From contig JAIPJN010000006.1 in assembly GCA_021734125.1 (NCBI GenBank), positions 1 through 33,009 on the forward strand: 33,009 bases of DNA. The letters run 5' to 3'. The notes under the pieces are model-generated. The model was not told the origin of the DNA and did no database searches. It saw only the letters and a program-made list of their open reading frames with translations. Of the stretch, positions 2,093 through 33,009 are shown one piece after another. The DNA is from Patescibacteria group bacterium. GTDB taxonomy: Bacteria > Patescibacteriota > Patescibacteriia > JAGPKW01. Positions within the stretch are counted from its first letter, which is position 1. Each line of letters begins with the position of its first letter. The position numbers and the translations under genes were made by a program.

Positions 2093-2711
2093 ATTCTTTA
2101 TATTCTTTAATGATAATATTGGATAAATTATCCGGCATTGTATTATTAATTTTTATATAATCTTCATCTTTTTCTCCAAAATAATTTCTGAAAACTTGAA
2201 TTTTGTTTTCAGATTTTTGGGTAAAGTGAGTATATATTACGAAATTATATATTGAAAGATTATTTATGTCAACTTTATATAATTTCTTATATCTTTTTAC
2301 TTCAGATTTTCTTCTTTTTATAGTTTCTTTTTCTACTATTTTAATTTTTTTATTTTCTCTTTTTGCAATTCTATTTACTCTTACAGAAAAATCTCCTTGC
2401 ATATACACTTTAAAAGATTCAATATTTTCCTTTTCTAACAAAATTCCAGCCATTCTAGTGGGAACTACAATATTATTATTATTTTTACAATACTCAATAA
2501 CTCTATCATCTATTTCATAGTCTATTTCTGGGTGTTTTTTTATATATTTTGAAAAAAATACATCTTCTGAAATACCTTTTTCTTTCGCTATTTGTCTTGC
2601 TATATCACCTGAAGAAATAAGTTTATAATTCAATTTTTTTGCTATCATTTCAGCTATTGTTGATTTTCCACATCCAGGTTTACCGGTTATTGTAATAATA
2701 TTTTTATCCAT
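2061..2711 (-). CDS. Cytidylate kinase-like P-loop kinase
   Basis: ITGKPGCGKSTIAEMIAKKLNYKLISSGDIAR (Walker A and CMK-like N-terminus). Confidence 0.75.
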   Translation of the reverse strand: MDKNIITITGKPGCGKSTIAEMIAKKLNYKLISSGDIARQIAKEKGISEDVFFSKYIKKHPEIDYEIDDRVIEYCKNNNNIVVPTRMAGILLEKENIESFKVYMQGDFSVRVNRIAKRENKKIKIVEKETIKRRKSEVKRYKKLYKVDINNLSIYNFVIYTHFTQKSENKIQVFRNYFGEKDEDYIKINNTMPDNLSNIIIKEYKEYVRRKNNTKT

Positions 2712-3396
2712 TTTCTAAAGTTTTTAAAAAATTTTTTAATTCTTCTGGAAGTTCTATTTTTATTTTTTGTTTATCTCCATATATATCAATAAATTCTAAG
2801 TAATATGAATGAAGAAATAATCTATTTAATTTATTTGGTATTTTTATAGACTTTGGTTTATATACATTGTCACCAGCTATATATCTAGAAATAGATTGGG
2901 CATGAATTCTTATTTGATGTGTTCTTCCAGTTTTAATAGCAGCTTCTATCAAACAAAATTTCTTATAATTTTGCACTACTTTTATTTTAGTAACTGCTTC
3001 TTTTGCTTTGTCATTATCTGTAACACAAAATTTTGATTTATTTGTTTTTGATCTTCCTATTTTATTTTCTATTGTAAGATCTGAATATATATTTCCATGA
3101 ACTAAAGCTAAATATTTTTTAATAATTTTTCTATCTTTAAAAAGATTTTTAAAATATAAAAATCCCTCTTGAGTTCTAGCTATTATCATTAATCCTGAAG
3201 TGTTTTTATCTAATCTATGAACTATTCCTGGTCTTAATTCTGATTCTCCTATATTTTCAATTTCTGGATATTTTTCAATTAAAAAATCTACTAATGTAGC
3301 TTCAGGATATTTTTCATTAGCTTTATGGACAGTTAACCCAGACGGTTTATTTATAATAATATAATCTTTTGTTTCTTTTATTATTTCTATATTCAT
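2704..3396 (-). CDS. RluA-family pseudouridine synthase
   Basis: INKPSGLTVH, GIVHRLDKNTSGLMIIA, GRTHQIRIH motifs. Confidence 0.9.
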   Translation of the reverse strand: MNIEIIKETKDYIIINKPSGLTVHKANEKYPEATLVDFLIEKYPEIENIGESELRPGIVHRLDKNTSGLMIIARTQEGFLYFKNLFKDRKIIKKYLALVHGNIYSDLTIENKIGRSKTNKSKFCVTDNDKAKEAVTKIKVVQNYKKFCLIEAAIKTGRTHQIRIHAQSISRYIAGDNVYKPKSIKIPNKLNRLFLHSYYLEFIDIYGDKQKIKIELPEELKNFLKTLENG

Positions 3397-3482
3397 TTTA
3401 TTTTATTTTATTATTACATAATAGCAGAATTAGTGTATTTTTGGAACTTTAAGATTATAAAAAAAAATGTTAGAATTATCAC

Positions 3483-4688
3483 ATGTTAGATGATAAAAAA
3501 ACAAAAGAAATTATAGAAAATAATATATTTACAGTTTCTTCTTTTTTGGATCTTTTAAATTTAACTATAAAACAAATTAAAGTAAAAGTTCAAGGAGAAG
3601 TTGTACAACTTACTAAAAACACAGCTAAAGGCCATGTTTATTTTTCTATTAAAGATAAAAAAGATAATGCAGTAATGAATTGTGCTATTTGGAAATTTAA
3701 TTATCAAAAATCTTCTATAGATTTAGAAGAAGGTATGGAAATTGTTGTAAATGGTAATTCTAATATTTATAAACCTAATGGTAGATTTACTTTTATTGCG
3801 AATACTGTTGAACTTCTTGGAGAAGGAGCTCTTAAAAAAGCTTATGATGAATTAAAATTAAAACTTGAAAAAGAGGGTTTAATGGATGAAGATAAAAAAA
3901 AGATTATTCCTAAATTTCCTAAAAAAATTGGTGTTATTACTTCAAGAAGTGGTGCTGTTATAAATGATCTTTTAAATAATCTTGGTAATTATGGATATCA
4001 AGTTAAATTAATTCATTCTAGCGTAGAAGGTGCTGAAGCTATTCATGATCTTCTTCCTGCTATAAAAACTATGAAATGTAAAGATATAGATGTTTTGTGT
4101 ATTTTAAGAGGGGGAGGATCACTTGAATCTTTTGCCTCTTTTAATAATGAAAATTTTATAAGAGAAGTTGCTAATTTTCCAGTTCCTGTAATTTCTGGCT
4201 TGGGACATGATAAAGATATTCCTCTTACAGCTCTTGTATCTGATTATTATTCTTCTACTCCAACTGGAGTTGCATCTTATCTTAATGATTCTTGGAATAA
4301 GGCTAAAATAAATATTGATTCTTATGAAAAATTAGTAAAAAGTAAATTTGAAAATTATATTAATATTTTAAATTCTAAGATTTTAGAATCTGAATTTAAG
4401 ATTAAATCATATATTAAAGAAATTACTAATTTTTATGATAATTTTTTATATAAATTATCTACTTATTTAAAAAATATTAAAACTAAGATAGGTGAGCTTG
4501 AATACAAAACAGAAAATTTTAGAAAAAATATTGAATCAAATAATCCTGAAAAACATTTAAAATTAGGTTATTCTATTATTAGAGATAAAGATGGAAAAAT
4601 AGTAAGTAAAAAAGAAAATATAAAAATAAAAGAGGATTTTTCTGTTACTCTTAGTGATGGAAATATAATAGGGGAGAGAATAAAATAA
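3483..4688 (+). CDS. xseA: Exodeoxyribonuclease VII large subunit
   Basis: OB-fold N-terminus, IGVITSRSGAVINDLL, RGGGSLESFASFN, GLGHDKDIPLTALVSD. Confidence 0.93.
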   Translation: MLDDKKTKEIIENNIFTVSSFLDLLNLTIKQIKVKVQGEVVQLTKNTAKGHVYFSIKDKKDNAVMNCAIWKFNYQKSSIDLEEGMEIVVNGNSNIYKPNGRFTFIANTVELLGEGALKKAYDELKLKLEKEGLMDEDKKKIIPKFPKKIGVITSRSGAVINDLLNNLGNYGYQVKLIHSSVEGAEAIHDLLPAIKTMKCKDIDVLCILRGGGSLESFASFNNENFIREVANFPVPVISGLGHDKDIPLTALVSDYYSSTPTGVASYLNDSWNKAKINIDSYEKLVKSKFENYINILNSKILESEFKIKSYIKEITNFYDNFLYKLSTYLKNIKTKIGELEYKTENFRKNIESNNPEKHLKLGYSIIRDKDGKIVSKKENIKIKEDFSVTLSDGNIIGERIK

Positions 4689-4702
4689 ATTAACTAAAAA
4701 AT

Positions 4703-4912
4703 ATGTCTGAAAATAAAGTAGATTTATCAAAAAATTTAAAAAAATTAGAGGAAATTTCTTCTTGGTTTGAAAATCAAAAAGAACTTAATGTAGAGGAGGG
4801 TTTAAAAAAAGTAAAAGAAGCTTTAGGTTTGGTAAAAGAGAGTAAAAAAGAACTTCAAAATGTAAAAAATGAATTTGAGGAAATAGAAAAAGAGTTTGAG
4901 GAAGAAAAATAA
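4703..4912 (+). CDS. xseB: Exodeoxyribonuclease VII small subunit
   Basis: 69 aa, directly downstream of xseA; LKKLEEISSWFENQKELNVEEGLKKVKEA pattern. Confidence 0.75.
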   Translation: MSENKVDLSKNLKKLEEISSWFENQKELNVEEGLKKVKEALGLVKESKKELQNVKNEFEEIEKEFEEEK

Positions 4913-4917
4913 TTTTT

Positions 4918-5215
4918 TATTTTATAATTTATGTAGGGGCGCACATTGTGCGCCCATTTAATTTAAAAAATAATGTTTTATTTTATGATTTATGTAGGGG
5001 CGCACATTGTGCGCCCGTTTAATTTAAAAAATAATTTTTTATTTTATAATTTATGTAGGAACGCGCCGTGGCGCGTTCCATTTTTGTCTATTAATGTTTT
5101 TATATAAAATTGCACGTTTATTTTCATGTGCGTTTAATTTAAAAAATAATGTTTTATTTTATAATTCATGTGGGAACGCGCCATGGCGCGTTCCACCCAA
5201 TTTTATCCATTAATG
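4918..5215. repeat. Intergenic palindrome array (four family A palindromes plus one family B hairpin)
   Basis: GGGCGCACA-T-TGTGCGCCC at 4937-4955 and 4998-5016; GGAACGCGCC-NN-GGCGCGTTCC at 5058-5079 and 5173-5194; GCACGT/ATGTGC hairpin at 5112-5131. Confidence 0.9.
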
Positions 5216-5261: not shown

Positions 5262-5290
5262 TTGACATTTTATATAAAATATGTTATATT
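5262..5290 (+). promoter_or_regulatory. Sigma-70-type promoter with extended -10
   Basis: TTGACA (5262-5267), 17-nt spacer ending TGT, TATATT (5285-5290). Confidence 0.8.
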
Positions 5291-5346: not shown

Positions 5347-6066
5347 ATGAAAAAGGTATTATTTTTTTTGGTGATTTTTTTCTTTTCTGTCAGTTTCATC
5401 AGTGCTGAGACGCTGGTGAATTTCAATGTGATAAATATTCTCGCCGTTCCTTTCGATCAGCGAGAAGACATGAATAAATATGACCAGGAAAGGATTAATA
5501 ACCTGGTCATGTTAGAAGCATCTCTTAAAAAACCTCTAACGAAAAAATTGGAGGTTGAGTTTATTTTGAATCCCTATATAGTCCAAGAAGGACTTATAGG
5601 GATCAATTTCAAACCCATATTATCATTATATGGGTTTGAAGGATTAAGGTTCGGACTTGCTTCAGAGTGGAAGCTTGCCGAGCCAGGGTGCTCAAGTTTT
5701 TATTGGGTACCTAAAATCTCCCTTCTTGTTTCATATAAGAAAGGGGATTTTAAAATAAGTTCTTCTGTTAATTTGGCAGAAGAACAATTTGGAGGTTTTT
5801 TTACTTATCATATAGGTAAAGAAACCTATTTAAAAAGCTTTGTGAAGTTTCCCTTCACAAAGCTGGAGATTCCCATTTATGACTCCTATGGAGTCATAAC
5901 TGATTGGGGTAATTCAGGATTTACCCCAGAAATTGGATTTAAGGTAATTAAATCCAACCTAATAATCGGTGCTGAAATACAGCCTGATTATTGGGCAAAT
6001 CTTGAAGGAAACCCTATGTACACATTAAAAGTGTGTGTAGGGTATTCATTTTCTAAAGAATTGTAA
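5347..6066 (+). CDS. Secreted or envelope protein of unknown function (239 aa, signal peptide, alternating beta-strand pattern), hairpin-dense coding sequence
   Basis: Start corrected from the track (5281 lies inside the -10 region): MKKVLFFLVIFFFSVSFISAETLV...; SD at 5338. Confidence 0.85.
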   Translation: MKKVLFFLVIFFFSVSFISAETLVNFNVINILAVPFDQREDMNKYDQERINNLVMLEASLKKPLTKKLEVEFILNPYIVQEGLIGINFKPILSLYGFEGLRFGLASEWKLAEPGCSSFYWVPKISLLVSYKKGDFKISSSVNLAEEQFGGFFTYHIGKETYLKSFVKFPFTKLEIPIYDSYGVITDWGNSGFTPEIGFKVIKSNLIIGAEIQPDYWANLEGNPMYTLKVCVGYSFSKEL

Positions 6067-6108
6067 TTGTTTGAATCAACCATAGTTGGTTTCTACATAT
6101 ACAATTCT

Positions 6109-6143
6109 ATTCCGTTTAACGTAATGTTAAGCGGAATTTTTTT
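6109..6143 (+). terminator. Rho-independent terminator
   Basis: ATTCCGTTTAAC-GTAAT-GTTAAGCGGAAT (12 bp, one G.U) then a T run. Confidence 0.85.
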
Positions 6144-6176
6144 ATTGTAAAATATAGTTTTATTATATAAATTCCC

Positions 6177-6204
6177 GTAGTGACCAACGATCGTTGGTCA
6201 CTAC
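6177..6204. repeat. Family A palindrome variant GTAGTGACCAACGATCGTTGGTCACTAC
   Basis: Perfect 28-nt palindrome with GTAG...CTAC ends. Confidence 0.9.
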
Positions 6205-6287
6205 AATATTTTAATAAAAAACGTTTAATTTTGTAATTTCATTTTTAAATATAATTAATTTTAAAAATAACGTTTTTATATAAAATT

Positions 6288-6307: not shown

Positions 6308-6529
6308 ATTTTTTATAAATTATATTTTTATTTTAAACAAAAAAACATTCATAAATGAATGTTTAATTGCAAAGTATAAGCCTAATAAAAGGTTTTACAC
6401 TTAAATAAATGGTAGAAATACGAGAGTTTGGCAAAAAATTTTGCCTGAAAACCAGATAAATCTGATTTCCCACTTTCATAAGGAAAGTGCGACCTGAATC
6501 TTTTCAAAGAAAAGACTCAAATCTCCCTA

Positions 6530-8010
<1,481 letters not shown>

Positions 8011-8226: not shown

Positions 8227-9393
8227 ATGTATACAAAAATTTTTACTAAAACTGACAAAAAATTAGAACAAGAATTATTGTCTTTAAAATATACCTCTTA
8301 CTTTCAGTCAAAAAATTGGGCTGATTTTCAATCGGAATATTTTAATAGAAAATTTTGGTTTGTTAATTTTTATGAAAATAATAAAATAATTTCTTCTTGT
8401 CTTGTTTTAAAAATAGAATTACCATTTAATAAAAATTATCTTTATATACCTGCTGGTCCAGCTCTATATGACTATACTTCAGAAATTTATAAAAATTTAG
8501 TTACTGAAATTTCTAAAATAGCAAAACAAGAAAAATCTGTTTTTTTAAAATTAGAATCTACTTTTTCTAATAAAGATACTTTCGATGGTTCTTTTTATTC
8601 TAATTTAATGACTTTTTATAATAATGCTTATAATTTTTTTGTAAAAAATTTAGGTTTTTCTAAAACTTATGAAAATAAAGTACCAAATAACACTTTATTC
8701 ATTAATCTATTTAAAGATGAGGATCAAATTTTTAAAGAAATGAAACAAAAGGGTAGGTATAATATAAAAAAAGCTATAAAAAACAATATAAAAATAAACA
8801 AAACTAAAAATCCTGAATCAGAAGAGTTTGAAGAATTCTGGAAACTCACTAAAGAAACAACTAAAAGAGATAAATTTTCTTCAAATACTAAAGATTATTA
8901 TATTAATTTATTAAAATTTTTAAATTCAAAAAATATAGAAACTTATTTATATTCAGCATATTTTGAAAATAAAATAATATCATCTGCTATATGCGTTTTT
9001 TATAAAAATAAAGCAACATATTATTACGGAGCTAGCTCAAATAAATATAGAAAATTAATGGCACCTTATTTATTACAATGGGAAATGATAAAAGATGCTA
9101 AAGAAAAAAATAAGAAAATATATGATTTTTTAGGTATTTCTCCATCATATTATGAAGAAAATGGAAATTATATAATAAATGATAATTTTAATAGAATAAA
9201 ATTTAAAAAAGAGAAGGATGTGGAAAACTATTTAAATAAACACAATTTTTCAGGAATTACTGAATTTAAAACTAAATTTGGAGGAGAAAAGATGAATTAT
9301 ATGGGATCATGTGATTTAATATATAATAAATTCTGGTATTTTATTATAAAAATTTCAAAAAAAATTAGAAAATTAAAAAGAAAAATTATATGA
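8227..9393 (+). CDS. FemAB-like peptidyltransferase (lipid II bridge / GNAT fold)
   Basis: N-terminal FQSKNWADFQ, MKQKGRYNIKKAIKNNI, tandem acyltransferase-like layout; position before murF. Confidence 0.8.
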   Translation: MYTKIFTKTDKKLEQELLSLKYTSYFQSKNWADFQSEYFNRKFWFVNFYENNKIISSCLVLKIELPFNKNYLYIPAGPALYDYTSEIYKNLVTEISKIAKQEKSVFLKLESTFSNKDTFDGSFYSNLMTFYNNAYNFFVKNLGFSKTYENKVPNNTLFINLFKDEDQIFKEMKQKGRYNIKKAIKNNIKINKTKNPESEEFEEFWKLTKETTKRDKFSSNTKDYYINLLKFLNSKNIETYLYSAYFENKIISSAICVFYKNKATYYYGASSNKYRKLMAPYLLQWEMIKDAKEKNKKIYDFLGISPSYYEENGNYIINDNFNRIKFKKEKDVENYLNKHNFSGITEFKTKFGGEKMNYMGSCDLIYNKFWYFIIKISKKIRKLKRKII

Positions 9394-10670
9394 AAAAGAT
9401 ATTATTTAATATTTTAAGACTTCTTTCAAAAAAAATAGTAAAAAAATATAAGCCTAAAATTATAGGAATTACGGGATCTGTTGGTAAAACAACTTCTAAA
9501 AATGCAGTTTATGAAGTTTTGAAAAATAGGTATAAAGTTAGAATGTCACCAAAAAGTTATAATAGTGAATTAGGGCTTCCTCTTACCATCATGAATCTTG
9601 AAACTTCTAAATCTTTTTTTATTTGGATTATAAATATTTTTAAAGGAATTAAATTATTGTTAAAAAAAGATAAAAATTATCCAGAAATATTAATTTTAGA
9701 AATGGGAGCTGATAAACCTGGAGATATTTCTTATTTAAGAAATATTATAAAACCAGATATAGCAATATTAACAGAAGTTTCACCTTCTCATTTAGAAAAA
9801 TTTGATAATTTAGATAATATTTTGAAAGAAAAATTACAAATTTTTAATACAGGAGACAGTGATCAAAAAGCAATTCTTAATTTAGATAATCCTTTAATTA
9901 AAAAAAGTCAAACAGATATAGATGCTAATATAATTACTTATGGGATTAATGAAGATGCTGATATTAAAGCATTTAATATTAATTCTACTAATACTTTTGA
10001 CGATAATTATACTTCTGGAATTGAATTTGATTTAAAATATAAAAATGAAACTGCTCATGTAAAAATGCAATATTTATTGGGAAAACATCAAATTTATAGT
10101 ATTTTAAGTGCTTTTGCTATTGGTGTTATTTTTAATTTAACCTTGGAAGATATAAAAAATTCTTTAGAAGACACTAAACCTCAAAACGGAAGAATGTCAC
10201 TTTTAAAGGGAATAAAAAATACTTGGATTATAGACGATACTTACAACTCTTCTCCTATTGCTTCTGTATCTGCACTTGAAGCTTTAAGTTCTTCATCTAT
10301 TCTAGGTAAAAAAGTTGCAGTTTTAGGGGATATGTTAGAACTTGGAGCTAGTTCTGAATCTGAACATAAAAAAATAGGATATAGAGTTCAAGATTTAGAA
10401 ATCGATTTATTAATAACTGTTGGGGAAAGATCTAGAGATATAGCAAGAGGGTCTATAGAAGCAGGAATGGATGAAAATACCGTTTTTACATTTTCAAATA
10501 CTAAAGATGCAGGAAAATTTATACAAAATAGAATAAAACAAAATGATCTAATTCTTATAAAAGGATCTCAAAGTATAAGATGTGAAAAAATAGTAAAGGA
10601 AATAATGGCTAATCCATTAAATGCAAAAAATTTACTTGTAAGACAAACAGGAATATGGGAAAATAAATAA
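9390..10670 (+). CDS. murF: Mur ligase, MurF-like
   Basis: GITGSVGKTTSKNAV, ILEMGADKPGDI, DDTYNSSPIASVSALEAL, VLGDMLELG. Confidence 0.85.
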   Translation: MKKILFNILRLLSKKIVKKYKPKIIGITGSVGKTTSKNAVYEVLKNRYKVRMSPKSYNSELGLPLTIMNLETSKSFFIWIINIFKGIKLLLKKDKNYPEILILEMGADKPGDISYLRNIIKPDIAILTEVSPSHLEKFDNLDNILKEKLQIFNTGDSDQKAILNLDNPLIKKSQTDIDANIITYGINEDADIKAFNINSTNTFDDNYTSGIEFDLKYKNETAHVKMQYLLGKHQIYSILSAFAIGVIFNLTLEDIKNSLEDTKPQNGRMSLLKGIKNTWIIDDTYNSSPIASVSALEALSSSSILGKKVAVLGDMLELGASSESEHKKIGYRVQDLEIDLLITVGERSRDIARGSIEAGMDENTVFTFSNTKDAGKFIQNRIKQNDLILIKGSQSIRCEKIVKEIMANPLNAKNLLVRQTGIWENK

Positions 10671-31722: not shown

Positions 31723-32298
31723 TTACCATGAATCATCTAACCAGGAAGTTAGATGTGAAATAATTCCTTCCTGGCCTGGAACTTCAATAACAATTGAATT
31801 CTCTAATGATACTAGTAAAAAAGTTTCTTTATTACTGAAAATATACAATATATTTCCAGTAAGTCTGCTTTTTTCACTAGATTTGTCAATCTTTAAAACC
31901 CCGCCTTCATCTCTTATTCTGCTAAGAGAAGCATTTAAATAATCTTCTTTTGTGGGGTTTAAAGATTCAACTTTTATCAAGGGATTATTTTGATTTTTAT
32001 TTTCAAAATTAACTCCTTCTGGAAAAAAGTTTTGAGGCTCTTTGTATGATAGAATCTCTAAACATAGATTCTCATCAGTTATCCGTGAAACTACGAAAAA
32101 GTTTTCATAATTTTCTTCTTTTTTAGTTTCATTTTCAACTTCCACTTCTATTTCTTCTTGAAAAACTGGTGGAACTTCTTCTATTTCTGCGGTTTTATTT
32201 CTACTATCTTTTGCAGAAATTCCCTCTGAACTTCCAGCAGAAAAAGCTTGAAAGCTTGCCAAAAACAGAATAATTGAAAAAATTAATATTTTTTTCAT
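31723..32298 (-). CDS. Secreted protein of unknown function (191 aa, signal peptide), hairpin-dense coding sequence
   Basis: MKKILIFSIILFLASFQAFSAGSSEG...; AGGAGG SD; multiple inverted repeats in the CDS. Confidence 0.85.
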   Translation of the reverse strand: MKKILIFSIILFLASFQAFSAGSSEGISAKDSRNKTAEIEEVPPVFQEEIEVEVENETKKEENYENFFVVSRITDENLCLEILSYKEPQNFFPEGVNFENKNQNNPLIKVESLNPTKEDYLNASLSRIRDEGGVLKIDKSSEKSRLTGNILYIFSNKETFLLVSLENSIVIEVPGQEGIISHLTSWLDDSW

Positions 32299-32356: not shown

Positions 32357-32369
32357 TGTATTGGAGGGT

Positions 32370-32638
32370 GGAACGCGCCGTGGCGCGTTCCTACGGGAAT
32401 TATAAATAAAACATTGTTTTTCAAATTAAATGTACACAAAAATAAACGTACAATTTTATATGATAATGTTAATGGTTTAATATTGCATAAACACGCCATG
32501 ACGCGTTCCCACGTGAATTATGAAATAAAATGTTGATTTTTAAATTAAATGCATGTTAAATTACATCCGGTTTTTGTATAAAAACGTTAATTGCAATAAA
32601 TTGGGTGGAACAGGACGACAATGTCGTCCTGTTCCTAC
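32370..32638. repeat. Intergenic palindrome array, about 120-bp period
   Basis: GGAACGCGCC-GT-GGCGCGTTCC (32370-32391), decayed copy (32486-32512), GGAACAGGACGACA-A-TGTCGTCCTGTTCC (32607-32635); family B hairpin at 32431-32452. Confidence 0.9.
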
Positions 32639-32699
32639 AAAACGTAGATTTTATTTAAAATTATTTTTTTTATTTAAACGCATTATCGTATAAAAGATA

Positions 32700-32773
32700 T
32701 TGACAAATGTTAAAATATGTGTTATTATGTATATATCTTAAAAATTTATTCCCTTAAATAGGGAACTCGGAGG
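32700..32773 (+). promoter_or_regulatory. Promoter, leader hairpin and SD of the partial secreted gene
   Basis: TTGACA-N17-TATTAT; TATATATCTTAAAAAT; TTCCCT-TAAAT-AGGGAA hairpin; GGAGG 32769-32773. Confidence 0.75.
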
Positions 32774-32778
32774 AAAAT

Positions 32779-33009
32779 ATGAAAAAAATATTAATGTTAT
32801 TGGTTGTGATGGTTATAGTTGTTTCTGCACTTTCTGCAGAAACAAAAGTCTTTCCAGGTTATGAAAACCTGGAAATAAATACCGAGAGTTATGTTATGAC
32901 GTATACGTACAACGTCGTAGAGAACTCATCTCTGTCTCGGCGGAGATTTGATGAGGTGAAAGCCCTCACAGAGCTCTCAAGAGTTCTTAAAGAGGTATTT
33001 GAAATATCT
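32779..33009 (+). CDS. Secreted protein of unknown function, N-terminal fragment, hairpin-dense coding sequence
   Basis: MKKILMLLVVMVIVVSALSAETKVFPGYENLEINTESYV..., runs off the window end. Confidence 0.8.
   Translation, partial: MKKILMLLVVMVIVVSALSAETKVFPGYENLEINTESYVMTYTYNVVENSSLSRRRFDEVKALTELSRVLKEVFEIS

Follow-up and report, generated by a model that had tools for sequence, protein, structure and literature searches.

The gene that starts at position 32779 of the studied DNA is the beginning of a protein-coding sequence whose mRNA folds into hairpins well beyond what its codons require, and this excess of structure is real, though based on a short stretch (231 nt). The gene is one of several, and the evidence points to protein-coding genes that form a class under selection for bulk mRNA structure, given that a second gene of the same DNA, at 5347, far exceeds the other chromosomal genes tested and that unrelated genes of this kind occur in related bacteria. 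The window, i.e., the whole stretch of DNA that was analysed, comprises 33,009 bases and corresponds to the entire contig C26 of a fragmented 663-kb assembly from a Patescibacteria lineage. The PyrG protein is 73% identical to that of the MAG CSBr16_96 and about 61% identical to those of Berkelbacteria and Yanofskybacteria.

The gene (32779..33009, forward strand) opens with an ATG at 32779 and extends over 77 codons, which are still open where the contig end cuts them off at 33009, limiting all statistics to 231 nt. Its product starts with the signal peptide MKKILMLLVVMVIVVSALSAET. Upstream on the same strand are a promoter-like site at 32700..32728 (TTGACA, 17 nt, TGn-TATTAT, with 11 of 12 matches), a 5'-UTR stem-loop at 32749..32765 (TTCCCT-TAAAT-AGGGAA, -7.3 kcal/mol) and, downstream of this stem-loop, the Shine-Dalgarno sequence GGAGG at 32769..32773, which was read directly from the sequence. 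Within the coding sequence, a hairpin at 32819..32845 has a perfect stem of 11 bp (32819-32829/32835-32845) closed by a 5-nt loop, another at 32851..32875 has a perfect stem of 10 bp (32851-32860/32866-32875), and the one at 32895..32919 (stem 32895-32902/32912-32919) combines seven Watson-Crick pairs with one G.U pair. Four shorter stems on the forward strand are also present in the sequence, at 32925-32930/32950-32955, 32952-32956/32964-32968 (TGAGG/CCTCA), 32921-32927/32981-32987 and 32882-32887/32935-32940. Given that these four overlap or cross, they are alternatives which cannot form simultaneously; in the minimum-energy fold, the remainder of the fragment is a chain of other short hairpins.

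The main null model consisted of synonymous-codon shuffles, in which the protein, the codon use and the GC content are kept constant, and the effect is expressed as d, obtained by subtracting the mean of the codon shuffles from the folding energy per nucleotide. With base-pair span limited to 50, the segment 32779-33009 presents a folding energy of -65.4 kcal/mol, against -46.2 +/- 5.6 kcal/mol in 3000 shuffles. Only one of the 3000 is as stable as the native fragment, and four of 3000 when the comparison is made from codon 14 on. This yields a z of about -3.5 over 231 nt and a d of -0.080. The fragment also contains two perfect stems of at least 8 bp with loops of at most 20 nt, where 0.34 were expected.

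An earlier note, made without database searches, had listed seven stems in this gene, and all of them were confirmed within one base of the positions given; the one that was off by a base had been placed at 32896-32918 instead of 32895-32919. Its description of the gene as the third hairpin-dense one also held, as the structured protein-coding genes of the window are three in number, at 5347, 31723-32298 and 32779. The likeness it saw between the N-termini of the 32779 and 5347 products amounts to 13 of 24 residues with E = 0.40, which reflects two similar signal peptides and does not demonstrate homology. Finally, it had suggested looking for a string of such genes downstream. Such a string was found, not downstream, where the contig ends, but on another contig, G500:C10, which is described below.

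The first and complete hairpin-dense gene of the window (5347..6066, forward strand) encodes a strand-rich protein of 239 aa with a signal peptide and no family match. It is preceded by a promoter-like site at 5262..5290 (TTGACA-17-TATATT, 11 of 12 matches) and followed by a hairpin with a T run resembling an intrinsic terminator (6109..6137), both on the forward strand. Depending on the settings, its codon-shuffle z is -17.7, -15.3, -16.1, or -10.7, the last value being obtained with a span of 50 and 60 shuffles, none of which was as stable as the gene. Along its fold, hairpins follow each other almost without a break, from the first codons through the stop. In a dinucleotide-shuffle scan with 240-nt scan windows, those from 5401 to 6240 gave z between -6.7 and -12.6 on the sense strand. 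This local structure exceeds that of the 16S gene of the same contig, where only two scan windows passed -3.5, the span limit leaving out the long-range rRNA pairs. The second gene (31723..32298, reverse strand; 191 aa, signal peptide) is moderate, with z of -6.0, -4.8, -3.8 or -3.4 by settings, and the remaining genes tested in the window lie between -2.7 and +1.7. All three structured genes thus encode signal peptides, and the genes at 5347 and 32779 additionally share a near-consensus promoter and a 5'-UTR stem-loop. The promoter regions of these two genes align with each other and with that of a further hairpin-dense gene of this genome, on contig C21.

Database searches contributed little to the identity of these genes. 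Pfam, NCBIfam, PHROG and PADLOC gave no usable match for the hairpin-dense genes of the window, the 32779 fragment remaining below threshold throughout, and the only Rfam matches in the window were the 16S rRNA and tRNAs, which, like the lack of shared helices in the homologues described below, speaks against a conserved, riboswitch-like cis-RNA. Searches of GTDB genomes, IMG/VR, phages and about 390 genomes of the class yielded no convincing homologue of the 5347 gene. A search for an RNA-phage (Leviviricetes) origin of its protein returned no phage tblastn match and only sub-threshold PHROG matches. A single-sequence AlphaFold model of the protein shows many strands, but its pLDDT of 33 is too poor for a structure search. 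We also observed that the products of 5347-6066 and of L030:3071-3778 are both secreted and rich in strands, with ends resembling those of beta-barrels, in a lineage where no Omp85 was found (three genomes of the order were searched).

To put the effect on a common scale, the d of the 5347 gene ranges from -0.151 to -0.172, compared with -0.073 for the MS2 replicase gene and -0.046 for the MS2 coat gene, i.e., about twice the replicase value under the codon-shuffle null. Genes of this kind are rare. In a Patescibacteria sample of 1574 ORFs of at least 200 nt, six had d < -0.08; these counts refer to samples of genome stretches and not to whole genomes. Five of the six are the 5347 gene, two other genes of this genome (C21 and C27), and one gene each from the genomes G002 and G297, while the translation of the sixth, L095:11600, is of the type obtained when a tRNA is read as an ORF. 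In phages T4 and SPO1, no ORF out of 139 reached d < -0.08, and phage genes were accordingly rejected as a general source of hairpin-dense genes. The GC content of hairpin-dense genes is well above that of their genomes (0.33-0.39 vs about 0.23, and 0.49 vs 0.28). High expression was likewise rejected as a sufficient cause, given that 93 translation-machinery genes, ribosomal proteins and elongation factors included, present no excess structure (p = 0.84).

The C21 gene (C21:21049-21444, or L030:13047-13445, reverse strand) has a z of about -6.5, the C27 gene (C27:1032-1295, L145), which encodes a small cysteine-rich protein, has -4.8, and the gene from G002, a genome of the same family as the source organism, has -5.9 (L097:8961-9443). 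None of these three encodes an obvious signal peptide. A homologue of the C21 protein, from another family, is encoded in G297 (L183:1474-1908), with E = 4.8e-5 and 31% identity. The GC content of this gene is 0.49 against a median ORF GC of 0.28 in its genome, and its hairpin density ranks first among the 235 G297 ORFs sampled. A profile built from the C21 and G297 proteins identified a further homologue in G500, which belongs to yet another family (E = 7.6e-9, 30% identity), and its gene has z = -5.9. Hence, in this family, and in this family only, hairpin density is seen to be kept across homologues (C21, G297 and G500), at GC contents of 0.39-0.61. When the three folds were placed on the protein alignment, however, shared base pairs were no more frequent than at arbitrary shifts, so no conserved hairpin positions were detected. 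Given that the homologues are all hairpin-dense with hairpins at different places, selection appears to act on bulk mRNA structure and on no specific motif. What persists is the density of structure and not the particular helices, and no other finding argues as strongly for selection on bulk structure as this family. As for the proteins themselves (L030:13047-13445, L183:1474-1908, L211:7252-7641), they have about 130-144 aa and no Pfam match; the motif [VI]LVP is common to all three, NATPET.R occurs in two of them, and all three copies are in hairpin-dense genes.

On G500:C10 (L211, 15.9 kb), the contig with the string of genes, local structure is extreme in three stretches, at about 2400-3500, 4200-4800 and 9240-10080, and less pronounced at about 6700-7500. 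Its small ORFs have z between -3.0 and -6.8, whereas a methyltransferase gene (z +1.2) and an HNH/endonuclease VII gene (z +0.7) are unstructured. In the intervals 2400-4800, 6500-7650 and 9240-10150, small orphan genes that are hairpin-dense cluster beside the methyltransferase and HNH genes. One gene of this cluster encodes a Cys-rich protein resembling the C27 gene product, and the regions at about 7.7-9.1 and 10.9-15.9 kb are non-coding in appearance. The contig may possibly be a mobile element, or it may be misbinned, and its host is uncertain.

Some observations on other contigs are reported here in their own right. Contig L112 of G001 (C3) carries many small ORFs and looks phage- or plasmid-like; it includes a further hairpin-dense small gene at 10039-10284 (d -0.079), and the eight of its ORFs that were tried gave only weak PHROG matches. 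On the reverse strand of G000:C9, L136:4236-5021 is a DUF932/TIGR03299-like gene of phage/plasmid type, with GC 0.39 in an AT-rich genome and moderate structure confined to the sense strand (d -0.042, against -0.008 for the antisense strand). Contigs L100 and L104 (G002:C4 and C6) contain ORFs of GC 0.43-0.56 in a low-GC genome, one of them with a lipoprotein-type signal sequence, and contamination of the bin is possible.

Whether selection acts on the RNA or on the DNA was assessed by the pairs that differ between the two strands. The stems of 16 hairpin-dense genes contain 43 G.U pairs against 17 A.C mismatches, with 31.7 G.U pairs expected from composition (p = 0.004). Most of the 16 genes were, however, picked by folding of the sense strand, which favours G.U; in the genes found otherwise, the counts are 18 and 6, which is not significant (p = 0.15; 0.09 to 0.27 over settings). 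Moreover, the antisense strand of several hairpin-dense genes folds almost as well as the sense strand. Selection at the RNA level is favoured, with only weak support from the bias of G.U over A.C, and it is not proven.

What is established is structure beyond coding need, its rarity, its position-free presence in the homologues of one family, and the common anatomy of the transcription units in this genome. The function is inferred, in the absence of expression, half-life or probing data. The most likely reading is nuclease shielding of solitary accessory mRNAs, although we hold it tentatively, as somewhat less likely than not. The 32779 region would be where a transcription unit of a single gene begins, with its near-consensus promoter, 5'-UTR stem-loop and Shine-Dalgarno sequence ahead of a signal-peptide gene, and the gene would be one of a class of Patescibacteria accessory genes. 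Synonymous codons, and probably also tolerated amino acids, would have been selected such that the mRNA becomes a continuous chain of short hairpins, the target of selection being the bulk structure and no single hairpin. When free of ribosomes, such an mRNA would leave endo- and exoribonucleases hardly any single-stranded stretch to act on, while the ribosome, which is an RNA helicase in its own right, would melt the short hairpins one by one. A solitary, separately promoted mRNA may thereby be long-lived and pass through many rounds of translation, or survive RNase-based stress. The combination of promoter, 5' stem-loop, Shine-Dalgarno sequence, the terminator of the 5347 gene and CDS-wide hairpins is what suggests an mRNA that is hard for RNases to attack. 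External support for the principle comes from designed superfolder mRNAs, whose highly structured coding sequences are reported to raise both stability and expression, though not in bacteria (PMC8940940). On the other hand, translation efficiency in E. coli falls as ORF-wide mRNA structure rises, a strong negative correlation (rho = -0.75; PMC5318159), which counts against shielding.

The main rival, which remains possible, is that the hairpins are armour of cargo genes derived from mobile elements or phages, directed against RNA-targeting defence or toxin RNases such as mRNA interferases or Cas13-like enzymes, and do not serve mRNA stability in general. In its favour, the run on G500:C10 is accompanied by DNA methyltransferase and endonuclease VII/HNH genes, themselves unstructured; the hairpin-dense genes are orphans without a family match and with GC well above their genomes; and housekeeping genes lack the feature. 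Against it, the queries tried had no homologue among IMG/VR contigs, INPHARED phages or PLSDB plasmids, the feature is absent from T4 and SPO1 genes, and the 5347 and 32779 genes adjoin ordinary chromosomal genes, with no mobile-element genes of the G500:C10 kind beside the latter. A DNA-level origin, in which quasi-palindrome correction (template switching) or the spread of short palindromes perfected the inverted repeats without any RNA function, is unlikely. It would account for stems that are short, local and mostly perfect, for the strong enrichment of antisense folding as well, and for an intergenic DNA rich in dispersed palindromes. However, all genes and intergenic DNA should then be affected alike, yet the neighbouring genes are clean, a fact left unexplained by a purely DNA-level process; the CDS stems are unlike each other and unlike the dispersed repeats, distant homologues retain the density over their whole GC range (0.39-0.61), and G.U exceeds A.C, though weakly. 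The dispersed palindromes themselves are found in the window at 4937-5200, 6175-6206 and 32360-32640, and in many places in G000; their kinds are GGAACGCGCC-GTGGCGCGTTCC, GGGCGCACATTGTGCGCCC, GTGACCAACGATCGTTGGTCAC and AACAGGACGACAAAGTCGTCCTGTT, and they lie within a longer repeated AT-rich intergenic unit.

A function borne by the RNA beside coding, as a protein sponge, an RNase III substrate or a membrane-localisation signal, would fit the structure of the UTRs as well as the CDS and the signal peptides in the three genes of the window. It is nevertheless very unlikely, as neither positions nor sequences of hairpins are conserved between homologues, Rfam recognises only 16S rRNA and tRNAs in the window, and the C21, C27 and G002 genes are without an obvious signal peptide. 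An artefact of chance or composition, with a few GC-richer genes standing out in an AT-rich genome, can be all but ruled out. The structured genes do have a higher GC than their genomes and the 32779 fragment is short, but the codon shuffles preserve GC and matched the native stability in none of 60 cases for the 5347 gene (z -10.7) and one of 3000 for the fragment; moreover, GC-rich genes without structure, e.g., the methyltransferase and HNH genes, adjoin hairpin-dense ones.

In comparison with known systems, a weak genome-wide excess of stem-loops and local secondary structure in bacterial coding sequences, beyond a codon-preserving null, was reported by Petrillo et al. 2006 (PMC1590033) and in the codon-preserving shuffles cited there. 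That bias is small and averaged over all genes, whereas here few genes are concerned, with z from -4 to -18 and neighbours near zero. Genome-scale ordered structure in RNA viruses (PMC3765861) similarly extends over whole coding sequences when compared with protein-preserving shuffles, but those are RNA genomes, while the present genes belong to the chromosome of a DNA-based cell and have a promoter and terminator of their own. The coding regions of Leviviricetes such as MS2 share the dense local hairpins, yet no sequence relation was found and their d is weaker than that of the 5347 gene. Superfolder mRNAs (LinearDesign/PERSIST-seq, PMC8940940) also have strongly folding coding sequences; they are artificial and were tested outside bacteria, whereas the hairpin-dense genes are natural and evolved. 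Bacterial 5'-UTR stem-loops of the ompA type are known to stabilise mRNA. Here too a 5' stem-loop precedes the Shine-Dalgarno sequence of a separately promoted mRNA, but the hairpins go on through the whole coding sequence. No direct precedent for a class of genes with coding-region hairpins in bacteria or Patescibacteria was found in the literature searched, which covered few subscription journals. CDS-wide ordered RNA structure is already known from the genomes of RNA viruses and, in weak form, as a bias of bacterial genes on average; here, a few chromosomal genes exceed MS2 in the same test while the neighbouring genes are unstructured.

The hairpin-dense genes would serve as a natural experiment on the amount of structure that the ribosome tolerates and the benefit that this structure brings, and they offer natural design rules for stable mRNAs. 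The question of whether structure in bacterial coding sequences protects or hinders becomes directly testable by recoding one small gene. In a bolder reading, which is no more than possible, Patescibacteria and their mobile elements may carry orphan accessory genes whose whole mRNAs are chains of hairpins armoured against RNA cleavage. These would be a natural counterpart of superfolder mRNAs, in which, equally as a possibility only, bulk structure is conserved while the individual hairpins turn over.
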